From a virus, in IMG/VR virus record IMGVR_UViG_3300006100_000062, positions 1 to 28,302 of that record: 28,302 nucleotides of DNA. The stretch is one strand, 5' to 3'. Shown here in pieces: positions 18,493 to 23,065 of this stretch. The notes under the pieces are model-generated. The model saw only the letters and a program-made list of their open reading frames with translations, was not told the origin of the DNA and made no database searches. The position numbers and the translations under genes are program-made. Each line of letters opens with the position of its first letter. Position 1 is the first letter of the stretch.

Positions 18493-21400
18493 ATGGGTAA
18501 CTCATATATTAAGGTTAGCGGTGTTTGGCAACCTATTAAAAACATGTATATGAAGATTTCTGGTGCCTGGACACCAATTAAAAATGCCTACATGAAAGTA
18601 GGAGGGGCTTGGACAAACGTATTTGCTCAATCTCGTATTCCAACCATTAAATCTAAAGTAACTATATCTACAAACAGCTCAAATTATCCTGCCACCTTAA
18701 CTGGAACTAACTACAATTGGTCAGATTCTGTATCGGACATTACTTCACTTACATATGTATTTCAAGTATCATCAGATGGCACAAACTTTGGAGCCATAGG
18801 TTCTCCACTTACAATATCAAATCCAGCTCAAGGATCTTCAACGTCCGTTCAATATGCCTTGCAAACCACAGACTTTTTAAGCACTTATCCAAATAGCTCA
18901 TATTTTAATTTTGTTGTAACAGCTACGGCTAAAGACCAACAAACAGGAGTTTCAGTTTCTGATTCAGTTCAAGTGACACCGCCCCAAGGCCCAGGACAAA
19001 TCACAGATCTTTCTGCATCAGATGTAGGAATGAACAGGCCCTGGAACAATGGTGCTATTCAGGTTTCTTGGTCAGCACCTCCAAGCAATGGAAATGCAAT
19101 TGATTATTATTTAGTTGAATATCAACCGTACGGAAGCTCCTCTTGGTATCAAGCAGGAACAACAAAATCAACTTCATACCTTTGGACGGGATTGACAGCA
19201 GGATTTCAGTATTATATGCGGGCTACAGCTCACAATGGTGGAGGATTAGCTACACCTTCAGGAGCGTCAAATCTTATCACAGTCACAACAGTTCCTAATT
19301 CTCCTACTGCAATAAGTGCTGATTCAAACTTAGATAAACAAACAAACGTTTATTTTGCTACAGTTCCTGACGGTCAAAATGGTGGATATCCAATTTCTTA
19401 CTATACTGCAACAGCTCCAGCAAGCTTATATCAAGTAGTAGCAGTAAGTAAGACGGGACAAACAAGCCCGATTAATCTTACTGGGCTGGGTAACAATGGA
19501 TATCAACTTAGTGCTTATGTTACTGCTACAAATGCTAATGGAACTTCAGCGAACTCTAGCTCAGTTTATTTTACTCCGCAAGCACCATATCACAACCCGA
19601 TCACTATTACAACAACTACTCCAGTAGGAACTTCAGATGGATTTAAGTTTTCTATAACAAATTCCAACTATTCAAGCTATAGCTGGCTCTTTACATTTAC
19701 TGGGGGAACAACTTCTGGCCCTGGACCATTTTATAGTTATGGTCAATATAGTGGTCCAACCTACAATCCTTCAACGGGATACTATGATGTTGTTGTAACA
19801 AATGTTGTAGCAGGAGGATATGCAACTTTAAAGATTGATGCATATGACCCAGGATATGGATCATTAGAAGGCGAAGTATCAGTTACTGGATATACAAAAC
19901 CAGGCCCAGCAACATTTATCCCGCACTACGGAACAGGAATTGGCTCAACAACCTCTACTTCGCAAGGATACATGACAATCTCATCTGTGGGTGCAACTTC
20001 AATAAATTACTGGGTTTACTACGGATCACACGGTACAGGCGTAACAGGATATGGAACTGATATTTCTTATACAGCTATGGATTCTGGTACTATAACAGGA
20101 TCTTCAGGAACATATTATTTCCCACAAAATGGGTACTATATTGTTCAGGCTCAGGGTCTTAATGATTACGGCGGTGTTGGAACAAGAGTTGCCTCTGATG
20201 TGTCTAATAGAAACTGGTTCTGGGGACCAATATATCAAGCTCCAACTGCGGGAGCACCTACATTAATTTCAGCAACTCCAAATTCAACTTCTTCTACACA
20301 AGCAAGTCTTACCATTAGTTATACAGCAGGGTCAAATGCATCCTCATATAACGCATATATTAATGGCGTACTTGACGGAAACACGTCAGGAACTACTTAC
20401 ACATTTAGCGGACTTGTCCCAAATCAAACAGTAAGTTGGAGGATTGTTAGTGTAAACTCGGCAGGAACAGAAGGTGGGTCTATTAGTGGTTCAGCTACTA
20501 CTCCACCATTTGTACAAATAACCGCAGGTCCACCAACAAATGTTCAATTATCTTTTGACGGTGTAAGCACAGTCACACTCACCTGGACAGCTGGAACAAA
20601 TGCTACAGGATATTCTGTATATATTAATAGTTTCTCATCTCCTGATGGAGCTACATCAACAACTTCCTACGTGTATACTGGAGCGTATGCAGGAGAAACA
20701 TTAACTTGGAAGATTGTTTCAGGTTATAATGGTCAAGCAGGTGGATCAGCCAGTGGAACTTATATAGTTACTACAGGTGGTGGAACATTTACATTTGCTC
20801 CATTTAGCTTTACTCCGTTTAGTTTTACACCGTTTAGCTTTACACCATTCTCATTTACCCCATTTGCGTTTACACCGTTTGGATTTACTCCACACTTCAG
20901 CTTTACCCCATTTGCGTTTACGCCGTTTGGATTTACTCCACACTTCAGCTTTACACCATTTGGCTTTACCCCATTTGGATTTACGCCACACTTTAGCTTT
21001 ACACCATTTGGCTTTACCCCATTTGGCTTTACACCACACTTTAGCTTTACGCCTTTTGCTTTTACATACGGATCAAGCCTTGACTTGGCAATATCTGCTA
21101 GAACAACTGAGGGTGTGATACCACTATCTTCAATAAAGCTGGGGGATAAAGTATTAACCTCTAACATAGATTCTTACATAGATTATGATGCACTTTCACT
21201 ATGGCAAGATAAAAATGTAGAGGTTTATGGTAATGAATTAGTGGAAGTTGCTGATATTGTAAATAGAAAGACTGACGTTGTTGTTATCATCAATGATGAG
21301 TACTTTACCAAAGAACATCTAATATTGATTAACAGAGATAAAATAATGTCATTTGTTAACTCCGATAATGTTGCTAAGGGTGATTATGTATGGTCGTACA

Positions 21401-21549
21401 ACAATCAATCCTGGACGGAAGTAAATAAAGTACAAGTAATTGAGGATTCATCTTATGACTTAATATCAATTAAGGTTGAACCAAATAGACCTTACTACTC
21501 AAATGATATCCTATGCTATGATTCATATGTAGGTGAAAAAAATGTTTAA
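18493..21549 (+). CDS. Fn3 fibre protein with F-x-F-T-P repeats and Hint-like C-terminus
   Basis: The product has 1018 residues after the SD AAAGGAT. Residues 5-46 hold three copies of a 14-residue unit (Y-[IM]-K-[VI]-S-G-[VA]-W-[QT]-P-I-K-N). Several Fn3-like domains follow (about 55-760). Residues 766-858 are 18 tandem F-[SAG]-F-T-P units. Residues 859-1018 look like a Hint domain: L-G-D-K-V after the first strands, T-K-E-H at 939-942 (the conserved TxxH), K-G-D-Y-V, and a closing N-D-I-L-C-Y-D-S that aligns with the usual N-G-I-L-V-H-N-S. The nucleophile position seems to hold Ser862, and the final His-Asn is Tyr-Asp. It is probably a fibre whose processing or anchoring involves the Hint module. 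Autoproteolysis is uncertain given these substitutions. Confidence 0.7.
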   Translation: MGNSYIKVSGVWQPIKNMYMKISGAWTPIKNAYMKVGGAWTNVFAQSRIPTIKSKVTISTNSSNYPATLTGTNYNWSDSVSDITSLTYVFQVSSDGTNFGAIGSPLTISNPAQGSSTSVQYALQTTDFLSTYPNSSYFNFVVTATAKDQQTGVSVSDSVQVTPPQGPGQITDLSASDVGMNRPWNNGAIQVSWSAPPSNGNAIDYYLVEYQPYGSSSWYQAGTTKSTSYLWTGLTAGFQYYMRATAHNGGGLATPSGASNLITVTTVPNSPTAISADSNLDKQTNVYFATVPDGQNGGYPISYYTATAPASLYQVVAVSKTGQTSPINLTGLGNNGYQLSAYVTATNANGTSANSSSVYFTPQAPYHNPITITTTTPVGTSDGFKFSITNSNYSSYSWLFTFTGGTTSGPGPFYSYGQYSGPTYNPSTGYYDVVVTNVVAGGYATLKIDAYDPGYGSLEGEVSVTGYTKPGPATFIPHYGTGIGSTTSTSQGYMTISSVGATSINYWVYYGSHGTGVTGYGTDISYTAMDSGTITGSSGTYYFPQNGYYIVQAQGLNDYGGVGTRVASDVSNRNWFWGPIYQAPTAGAPTLISATPNSTSSTQASLTISYTAGSNASSYNAYINGVLDGNTSGTTYTFSGLVPNQTVSWRIVSVNSAGTEGGSISGSATTPPFVQITAGPPTNVQLSFDGVSTVTLTWTAGTNATGYSVYINSFSSPDGATSTTSYVYTGAYAGETLTWKIVSGYNGQAGGSASGTYIVTTGGGTFTFAPFSFTPFSFTPFSFTPFSFTPFAFTPFGFTPHFSFTPFAFTPFGFTPHFSFTPFGFTPFGFTPHFSFTPFGFTPFGFTPHFSFTPFAFTYGSSLDLAISARTTEGVIPLSSIKLGDKVLTSNIDSYIDYDALSLWQDKNVEVYGNELVEVADIVNRKTDVVVIINDEYFTKEHLILINRDKIMSFVNSDNVAKGDYVWSYNNQSWTEVNKVQVIEDSSYDLISIKVEPNRPYYSNDILCYDSYVGEKNV
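18505..18630 (+). repeat. Three tandem 14-residue units in a fibre N-terminus
   Basis: The encoded units are Y-I-K-V-S-G-V-W-Q-P-I-K-N-M, Y-M-K-I-S-G-A-W-T-P-I-K-N-A and a shortened Y-M-K-V-G-G-A-W-T-N-V-F. The period is 42 bases. Similar tryptophan-centred repeats occur at the start of other phage fibre proteins and may dock them to the tail tip. Confidence 0.85.
20788..21066 (+). repeat. Tandem F-x-F-T-P pentapeptide repeat with 48-base superrepeat
   Basis: Eighteen units of 15 bases encode F-[STAG]-F-T-P. From 20848 the array follows a higher-order 16-residue pattern, F-S-F-T-P, F-[AG]-F-T-P, F-G-F-T-P-H, repeated four times, the first two with Ala and the last two with Gly in the middle unit. 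Codons for Thr and Pro vary between copies, so the amino acid pattern is conserved more than the DNA. This suggests selection on the protein as well as recombinational expansion. Confidence 0.95.
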
Positions 21550-21552
21550 ACG

Positions 21553-21561
21553 TGATATAAT
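21553..21561 (+). promoter_or_regulatory. Extended -10 promoter for the tail tip gene set
   Basis: TGATATAAT is a perfect extended -10. GTGAAA at 21533-21538 matches four of six -35 bases, 17 bases upstream of TATAAT. Transcription would start near 21568, at the SD GGAGG (21568-21572), giving a very short leader. Confidence 0.6.
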
Positions 21562-21578
21562 CAACTTGGAGGTAATAA

Positions 21579-21848
21579 ATGTCTGATGAAGTATTGTCGT
21601 ATGAAGACAAAGTTAATATTGTAAAATCACATCAAAAGAATCTCAGGTTTAATGAATATAACTTAAACTTGTCTTTAAAGCAGGAAAGCTCAAAGGCTTC
21701 TCCTTCTGAAGCATCTATAATTGACATTAAAGCTCAAGCTGCTGATGTTCAGAGACAGATTACCATTTTGCAAGAAGAGCTGGACTCTTTAGAGCATGAA
21801 GAACAACTAAGACTACAAAACGCAAATAAGGTGGAAAATGGCGAGTAA
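21579..21848 (+). CDS. Small coiled-coil protein, unknown function
   Basis: The 89-residue product starts at an ATG seven bases after GGAGGT. Its first half is charged and helical; residues about 45-85 (I-D-I-K-A-Q-A-A-D-V-Q-R-Q-I-T-I-L-Q-E-E) show heptad-like spacing of Ile, Val and Leu typical of a coiled coil. I do not recognise the family. It begins a new transcription unit directly after the Hint-bearing fibre and is overlapped by a second coiled-coil gene. A fibre assembly or capping role is possible but not shown. Confidence 0.7.
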   Translation: MSDEVLSYEDKVNIVKSHQKNLRFNEYNLNLSLKQESSKASPSEASIIDIKAQAADVQRQITILQEELDSLEHEEQLRLQNANKVENGE

Positions 21849-22029
21849 AGAAGAATTGATTATCATGGCTCTTCAACAAAGAATTGGAGAGATGGCAGCA
21901 CAGCACGAATTAGAAAAAGCTATCCTTAGAGCTGAATTAACTCAAAATGAAGAAGCTAAAAAGGAAAAAGAGAAAGCAATTATAGATTACAATGAAAAGT
22001 TGGAAAATCTTGTTTCAAAAGAAAGTTAA
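21838..22029 (+). CDS. Short coiled-coil protein, unknown function
   Basis: The 63-residue product starts at an ATG inside the end of the preceding gene (11-base overlap), with AAGGTGGA as SD. Almost the whole protein is Glu/Lys/Ala-rich helix with leucine and isoleucine at heptad-like positions (E-K-A-I-L-R-A-E-L-T-Q). It has no signal peptide or membrane segment. Being translationally coupled to another coiled-coil gene, it may form a hetero-oligomer with that product. The family is not recognised. Confidence 0.6.
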   Translation: MASKEELIIMALQQRIGEMAAQHELEKAILRAELTQNEEAKKEKEKAIIDYNEKLENLVSKES

Positions 22030-22396
22030 GCCAAAGCGAACATACTATCCCGTTGTTCCTAGCGGATTAATAGCTCATACTGAAAAGGGCTATTTTTATA
22101 TAAAGGGTTCAAAAAGATATACTGTTGTTTCAGAACGAGCAGCGATGTCCTGGAGCCTGCCCATTATTTCTACTAAAGATCAAATGCTTTCCAACCTACC
22201 GATTGCTGGCGTGGTTGGATTTCGTGACGGTACTTTGGTCAAAGATATATCTGATGGTAAAATATATCTTATAAGCGATTCAAAGCGTAGGCATGTTGTT
22301 GAGCCAGATGTTCTAGAGTGGCTAGAGCAAGATATAGTAGATGCGGGGCAAAAAGAAATTTTTGTTCATCCAGAGGGAGAAAAGCTAAGTGAGTAG
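21992..22396 (+). CDS. Protein with duplicated K-R-x-x-V-V surface-type motif
   Basis: The 134-residue product starts at ATG 21992, overlapping the previous gene by 38 bases. The SD is poor, and a TTG at 22010 is an alternative start. After a basic N-terminus there are two copies of a 21-residue motif: residues 34-54 (Y-F-Y-I-K-G-S-K-R-Y-T-V-V-S) and 91-111 (I-Y-L-I-S-D-S-K-R-R-H-V-V-E-P). The second is preceded by F-R-D-G-T-L-V-K. This pattern resembles the small beta repeats seen in many bacterial secreted or surface proteins (G-T-L-V-K...Y-L-I-x-x-G-K-R-R-x-I). Its position between fibre genes and a lectin-like tip suggests a virion tip or host-binding accessory protein. Confidence 0.65.
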   Translation: MKSWKILFQKKVKPKRTYYPVVPSGLIAHTEKGYFYIKGSKRYTVVSERAAMSWSLPIISTKDQMLSNLPIAGVVGFRDGTLVKDISDGKIYLISDSKRRHVVEPDVLEWLEQDIVDAGQKEIFVHPEGEKLSE

Positions 22397-22805
22397 TAAT
22401 AGAATTATTCAATCAGATAACGCAGTCCTAGATCTTAATACTATTAGCACAATGATTGATACAATAAATGGTCAGCAAAAAGCAATCGAAGATTTGCAAG
22501 CACAGGTATTTGGCACAAGCACAACAGTTGATCCCGCAACAGGACAACCTGCCACCCAATCTGGCCCACTTGTTATTGATTACGGACATACGCCAGTTAC
22601 CTCTGGAACTGTTACCGTAAAGTTTAATAAGCAGTTTAAGAGTGCCCCAGTATCAGTTGTAGGAACAATCTTGACATCTAGTGGCAATCAAGGGTATGCT
22701 TATGTATCTAAAACAATTACTGCCTCAGAAGCAGTGTTTACAATAGTTTCAAAGAGTAACACTTATAAAAATTATTACTTGTATTGGGTTGCTGTAGGTT
22801 ACTAA
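22389..22805 (+). CDS. Probable fibre tip protein with H-type lectin-like domain
   Basis: The 138-residue product starts at GTG 22389, overlapping the previous stop by 8 bases, with GAGGGAG upstream. Residues 10-40 form a trimerising-type helix (L-D-L-N-T-I-S-T-M-I-D-T-I), followed by a Thr/Pro linker and a beta domain at 59-138. That domain has I-D-Y-G, a V-T-V-K-F-N-K-Q-F-K-S-A-P strand pair, V-F-T-I-V and a closing Y-L-Y-W-V-A-V-G-Y. This order resembles H-type lectin domains (F-x-x-x-F-x-x-x-P...W-x-A-x-G). A trimeric sugar-binding receptor-recognition protein is the best guess, inferred from pattern only. Its stop overlaps the HNH gene start (TAATG). Confidence 0.6.
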   Translation: MSSNRIIQSDNAVLDLNTISTMIDTINGQQKAIEDLQAQVFGTSTTVDPATGQPATQSGPLVIDYGHTPVTSGTVTVKFNKQFKSAPVSVVGTILTSSGNQGYAYVSKTITASEAVFTIVSKSNTYKNYYLYWVAVGY

Positions 22806-23065
22806 TGTACCAGCCACTTACTTCTTGGGTAAAGAGGGAAAGTAAGGTTAGTAGAGAAGGCTACGTTTTAATTAAAGTTCCAGAACATCCTAAAAACTTT
22901 AAAGGCTGGTATTACGAACATCGGCTAGTAATAGAAAAAAAATTAAATAGAATAATCAATGATTGGGAAACTATTCATCATATCAACCATGATAAAACTG
23001 ATAATAGATTAATCAATCTTTTTTTGTGTTCACGGATTGAGCATAATAAAGCACACGCTGCTTGA
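22805..23065 (+). CDS. Free-standing HNH endonuclease
   Basis: I choose the ATG at 22805, which overlaps the preceding TAA, over an in-frame upstream start at 22784 that would run into the lectin-like gene. The product has 86 residues. An E-H-R at 38-40 and the core H58-H59-I-N-H62-D-K-T-D-N67-R-L-I-N71-L are the signature of the HNH_3 (His-Asn-His, beta-beta-alpha metal) nucleases common in phages. The size is that of a minimal stand-alone homing-type nuclease with no clear extra DNA-binding module. It lies at the junction between the tail tip genes and a new promoter, a typical insertion point for such genes. It could also have been recruited for packaging or replication, but nothing here shows that. 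Confidence 0.8.
   Translation: MYQPLTSWVKRESKVSREGYVLIKVPEHPKNFKGWYYEHRLVIEKKLNRIINDWETIHHINHDKTDNRLINLFLCSRIEHNKAHAA

Follow-up and report, generated by a model that had tools for sequence, protein, structure and literature searches.

The window, by which we mean the whole 28,302-base virus record analyzed here, carries a cassette of four small overlapping genes, as a first-pass annotation had claimed. All four are plus-strand open reading frames, overlapping by 11 nt (P1/P2), 38 nt (P2/P3) and 8 nt (P3/P4). P1 (21579..21848, + strand; 89 aa) is a predicted helical coiled-coil protein that is optional and sometimes duplicated among relatives; P2 (21838..22029, + strand; 63 aa) is small, probably helical, and by position and sequence the counterpart of gp66 of phage Karimac; P3 (21992..22396, + strand; 134 aa) belongs to the protein family phrog_9616 and has two predicted EccB-type repeats; and P4 (22389..22805, + strand; 138 aa) is predicted to join an N-terminal helix (residues 16-40) to a C-terminal beta sandwich (residues ~41-138) of gp53-like and H-type-lectin-like fold. 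An HNH endonuclease-like gene (22805..23065, + strand; PF13392, 31.4 bits against a cut-off of 24.8; phrog_10730) forms the conserved 3' border of the cassette, and a metallophosphoesterase gene (phrog_221) lies beyond it. On the 5' side stands a long fibre gene (18493..21549, + strand; 1018 aa) with fn3 domains and F-T-P-F repeats, and farther upstream are a tape measure protein (PF10145, phrog_10030) and minor tail proteins. This neighbour had been described as a Hint fibre; the fibre is present, but the Pfam Hint match is sub-threshold (15.4 against 29.7 bits, E 0.014). The weak match falls after the F-T-P-F repeats, at the fibre C-terminus (window 20980-21546). None of P1-P4 had an above-cut-off match in NCBIfam, and no Rfam family was found between window positions 21000 and 24000.

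Between the fibre and P1 lies an extended -10 promoter-like box, TGATATAAT (21553..21561, + strand), followed before the P1 start by a Shine-Dalgarno-like GGAGGT (21568..21573, + strand; recognized by eye). The box is defined by its sequence and by its recurrence across related loci: among 30 non-redundant loci, made up of the window and 29 of the 37 relatives (eight near-duplicates being excluded), 19 carry the pattern TGnTATA(A/C)T on the plus strand in the 600 nt 5' of P3, against 88 sites elsewhere in 427,712 bases, or 0.123 per 600 nt. Judged on this extended -10 box, the promoter that had been proposed for the cassette corresponds to a recurring promoter-like element. In several of the loci that lack P1 (L004, L007, L008 and L021, for example), a -10-type site precedes P2. 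Across the loci the pattern is found 108 times on the plus strand and 20 times on the minus strand; its other plus-strand occurrences in the window are at 1702, 12201, 12809 and 27451, several of them directly 5' of gene starts.

P3 has 37 relatives in IMG/VR and, at E up to 1, matches in 134 phage records, 127 from Streptomyces phages and 7 from Rhodococcus phages. Two of these, Karimac (gp66-gp67-gp68, NC_048724) and Tomas (gp69-71), share with the cassette the order P2, P3, P4, HNH, metallophosphoesterase, holin: in both, a long minor tail protein is followed by a P2-like protein, P3, a gene in the P4 position, the HNH gene, the metallophosphoesterase and the holin. Their P3 proteins are ~41% identical to that of the window. 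They differ from the window in having no P1 match and in a P4-position protein without a Pfam match, and their counterparts of the cassette genes are annotated as hypothetical. In five further Streptomyces and Rhodococcus relatives P3 falls after the last tail-side gene and before the phosphoesterase. With gene order of the Stanwilliamsviridae type on both sides, the cassette is best read as closing the tail module of a phage akin to the Stanwilliamsviridae, a group of Streptomyces phages, and it is kept at that place in actinobacterial phages.

P4 is dispensable, being present in 23 of the 37 IMG/VR loci and missing from 14, where the HNH gene starts 1 nt past P3 (10 loci) or 21-36 nt past it (4 loci). 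Inspection by eye placed a P2-like protein in 30 of the 37 loci; by the rule used, the other seven have none or another open reading frame. Some of the IMG/VR loci carry P1-like genes, and across seven Streptomyces and Rhodococcus phage loci the only P1 match was a weak one in Rhodococcus phage NiceHouse (L045; E 6e-4). No phage record was matched by tblastn with P4, and P2 gave only a single weak row. The first-pass annotation had suggested that the four products may form one detachable complex; the lack of a P1 match in six of the seven Streptomyces and Rhodococcus phage loci, together with the absence of P4 from 14 of 37, leaves a four-protein assembly of that kind unsupported. In two of the loci without P4 (L005 and L006), other genes lie between the fibre and P3, one of them dioxygenase-like by eye.

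P1 and P2 had both been taken for coiled-coil proteins. A heptad test was clear for P1 (p = 0.0004) but gave no signal for P2 (p = 0.35); the P4 stem, scored by itself, likewise showed none (p = 0.17). P1 and P2 would act as small helical assembly or adaptor proteins, and their position makes a chaperone role possible. Two P1-like copies are present in L029, L032, L033 and L037, with tandem helical genes at 7257-7834 in L029, 7366-7824 in L032 and 3784-4267 in L037.

The last gene of the cassette had been likened to an H-type lectin-like tip, and both profile and fold comparisons agree with a tip of that kind. P4 matches the Pfam family Gp53-like_C (PF21882) with 33.9 bits, above the cut-off of 24.9, while its score to H_lectin itself (PF09458) stays below threshold (17.6 against 24 bits). 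Its AlphaFold model, a single chain built from 18 sequences (the window's own and those of 17 loci among the 23 with P4, six near-identical ones being excluded), consists of the N-terminal helix and the beta sandwich, with pLDDT 79.8 and pTM 0.58. In a Foldseek search of the PDB the first match was the R1 pyocin fibre (E 9e-4), followed by tips of other fibres and tailspikes, AP22 gp53 and lectins, and matches in BFVD were to tail-fibre and H-type lectin proteins. VIA comparisons gave Z scores of 9.3 for R1/R2 pyocin fibres, 8.8 for AP22 gp53, 8.0 for discoidin II and 7.5-8.0 for the H-type agglutinins of the snail Helix. The P4 C-terminal domain is thus predicted to be like AP22 gp53, the R-pyocin fibres and Helix agglutinin in fold, and Gp53-like_C by profile. 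Its setting differs: gp53-like and pyocin tips form the end of a long fibre, whereas P4 is a stand-alone protein of 138 aa with a short helix as its stem. A sub-threshold Pfam match to an enterotoxin family (17.6 against 21 bits) was set aside as a chance match of small beta folds, and in NCBIfam a WIAG-tail match fell below its cut-off (18.5 against 33 bits).

P4 also changes quickly. Across 171 pairs from 19 loci (L025 and L028 have identical P4), median pairwise identity was 24.0% for the C-terminal part of P4, against a shuffled baseline of 16.7%, and 30.0% for its first 40 residues, compared with 66.4% for P3 and 77.9% for the HNH protein. The tip thus changes fast on a conserved background, and the rapid divergence of the lectin-like domain, which had been put forward as a check, is what a receptor-binding part would be expected to show. 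At E 0.01, PF21882 recognizes only 3 of the 18 P4 members, suggesting that the domain may be replaced or may have diverged past detection; it recognizes none of six P4-position proteins from Streptomyces and Rhodococcus phages. P4 would then be an exchangeable receptor-binding knob whose beta sandwich contacts host surface glycans and whose short N-terminal helix probably drives trimerisation and attaches it to the tail; it would be a stand-alone knob, and some relatives manage without one.

Another account is that the cassette encodes non-structural accessory functions and only happens to lie at the end of the tail operon. Counterparts of the four genes are annotated as hypothetical in all relatives examined, and the cassette has its own promoter-like element, both of which would suit such genes. 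However, the predicted fold of P4 is of the tail-fibre tip type, and Stanwilliamsviridae and Rhodococcus phage NiceHouse preserve the position beside the last long tail gene, so we regard accessory genes as improbable. The cassette products probably help the virus to grip its bacterial host.

P3 matches phrog_9616 with E 1e-29 (residues 23-132 on positions 4-117 of 118), a family of unknown function, and has no Pfam family at E 1. A duplicated K-R-x-x-V-V motif of a cell-surface type had been pointed out in it, and the motif does occur twice, as KRYTVV (residues 41-46) and KRRHVV (residues 98-103). Across the family the hairpin that carries it is conserved and the VV is not: what was read as a duplicated motif is a hairpin within a genuine tandem repeat of ~57 residues. 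The AlphaFold model (pLDDT 84.9), built from the window and 30 of the 37 loci, 31 sequences in all after seven near-duplicates were excluded, shows the element order E-E-E-H-E-H twice, ~57 residues apart. Repeat 1 spans residues 22-76 (22055..22219, + strand), with model elements from E27-29 to H63-66 and a repeat profile match at 22-75; repeat 2 spans residues 77-134 (22220..22393, + strand), from E82-85 to H120-123.

Comparison of the two halves by hhalign was not significant with a narrow alignment (A1; 35 of 100 shuffles), and the alignment was for that reason rebuilt with Streptomyces and Rhodococcus phages (A4, 17 sequences). With A4 the halves scored 18.0; the 100 shuffles averaged 9.1 and peaked at 14.8, none reaching the real score. 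The signal differs from one single sequence to another: in the window P3, 21 of 500 shuffles scored at or above the real sequence, and 4 of the 17 sequences (L003, L039, L045 and L048) had 6 or fewer. The duplication first noticed as a motif is thus a tandem repeat above chance once diverse relatives are included, with model units to match.

A Foldseek search of the PDB with the P3 model returned, at ranks 1-11, EccB entries or B chains of the ESX-5 complex (best E 6e-4), the latter of which we take to be EccB5, and at ranks 12-13 the endolysin LysIME-EF1. In VIA, nine EccB and ESX-5 B-chain rows had Z 5.7-7.1 at 2.0-2.9 A, the highest being an EccB repeat aligned with P3 repeat 2, although Z below 8 can reflect a common arrangement. 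This places P3 with the EccB-type repeat fold. The periplasmic repeats of EccB, a component of ESX type VII secretion (5cyu, 3x3m), have the same ~55-residue repeat fold; EccB1 has four repeats and a central domain (PMC4769845), whereas in P3 two repeats follow a basic N-terminus. Endolysin domains resembled single P3 repeats weakly, at low Z (LysIME-EF1, 6ist, 4.6; the lys170 wall-binding domain, 7d55, 4.1), and all others were at 2.9 or below. Rows for the Shiga B subunit (Z 2.2-2.5) were set aside as chance matches of small beta folds.

Profile comparison points to a relation in sequence as well. P3 repeat 2 aligned by hhalign to nine EccB proteins from other actinobacteria scored 29.5, with a shuffle maximum of 16.7 and none of 100 shuffles reaching it, and two more EccB places scored 22.6 and 22.4; repeat 1 alone scored 14.95 (5 of 100 shuffles) and is not clear by itself. 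The P3 repeat is thus related in sequence to EccB repeats, as seen through the profile of repeat 2. Searches of other kinds did not recover the link: hmmsearch with P3-only HMMs did not bring up EccB with an E of 10 or less and in another run placed it at E 32, below a decoy; PDB sequence searches with profiles A1, A2, A3, A4 and A5 gave chance-level rows, with no EccB among those from A1, A4 and A5; and the whole EccB architecture (PF05108) had no Pfam match in P3 (E 1) or in the window.

Bacterial proteins share the repeat. No cellular relative came out of a genome scan with A1. With A4, two matches (E 1.5e-6 and 0.003) were obtained among 296 Actinomycetia genomes, both in large open frames, one with about nine repeats (L173) and one with two or three (L172). 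A stacked P3-repeat profile recovered both (1.1e-14 for L173, 1.4e-7 for L172), while none of 1000 shuffled decoys scored at E 10 or better; neither of the two EccB in the same set was recovered. In the reciprocal direction, a profile of the bacterial repeats only found P3 at 1.5e-7, and the EccB in the set scored at the level of the decoys or slightly better. At E 0.001 a joint profile (A5) had matches in 21 of the 296 genomes, including the two from which the seeds came, and among 15 loci examined (L174-L188) two were the seeds' own genes (L174 and L175) and 5 of the other 13 were EccB by Pfam. The EccB-repeat fold, the sequence relation and the actinobacterial repeat proteins together bear out the earlier suggestion that the duplicated motif is of a cell-envelope type.

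The EccB1 repeats resemble PlyCB, the separately assembled wall-binding subunit of a lysin, and may bind peptidoglycan (PMC4769845); this wall-binding role is itself only proposed, there being as yet no experimental data on EccB1-peptidoglycan binding according to that paper, and the proposal is repeated in PMC6986878. The published likeness of EccB to PlyCB (PMC4769845) suggests one alternative, that P3 is a lysis factor of the PlyCB kind, an endolysin wall-binding subunit encoded separately between the tail and lysis genes; in Karimac, the holin is indeed the third gene past gp68. Yet P3 keeps company with the small genes at the tail end, its frame overlapping that of P2; in Karimac and Tomas an HNH and a phosphoesterase gene intervene before the holin; and no endolysin was found among those window open reading frames scanned with PHROGs or Pfam. 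PlyCB is absent from the P3 structure-comparison rows, and no catalytic partner of P3 was found. We consider a lysis role quite unlikely.

A stronger competitor, possible in our view though doubtful, assigns P3 to the structure of the distal tail, as an adaptor or plug in which the EccB-type repeat serves as a protein-protein module with no host binding. Its median identity of 66% suits such a part, whereas receptor-binding parts usually diverge; it is retained in loci without P4; and EccB itself belongs to a large envelope assembly (PMC6986878). Against this, its fold relatives include endolysin cell-wall-binding domains and its repeat relatives are actinobacterial repeat proteins, which suggest an envelope ligand for P3. 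Retention in the P4-less loci also means that P3 is not simply the adaptor of P4.

Our overall reading, to which we give slightly less than an even chance, sees in P4 an exchangeable knob for receptor binding, in P3 a conserved part that binds the envelope or docks, and in P1 and P2 helical helpers; P3 and P4 would be carried in the virion. P3 would sit at the distal tail and use its two EccB-type repeats to grip the actinobacterial cell wall or to dock other tip parts; we infer this role from its fold, its company and its host range, and the wall grip is modelled on what its wall-associated repeat relatives are thought to do. The main text of PMC7650747, consulted for virion proteomics, contains none of the terms 'mass spectrometry', 'LC-MS' or 'structural proteins', and a search of open-licence PMC papers for a phage-EccB link returned EccB/ESX papers only. 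A bolder proposal, which we consider possible though doubtful, is that phrog_9616 comprises tail-tip proteins built of the repeat that also makes up EccB of the host's type VII secretion system, a host envelope-anchoring repeat domesticated by phages of Actinomycetota to grip peptidoglycan under or beside an interchangeable lectin-like knob. The analysis as a whole links phrog_9616 to the EccB repeat and gives this hypothetical family a testable function; if P3 does bind the wall, a small phage protein would be a handy probe for the ligands of EccB repeats. The two bacterial frames found with A4, L173:421-3093 (- strand) and L172:931-3345 (- strand), match nothing in Pfam (E 0.01) or NCBIfam (E 0.1); each holds several EccB-type repeats, and together they apparently represent an unnamed bacterial repeat family.
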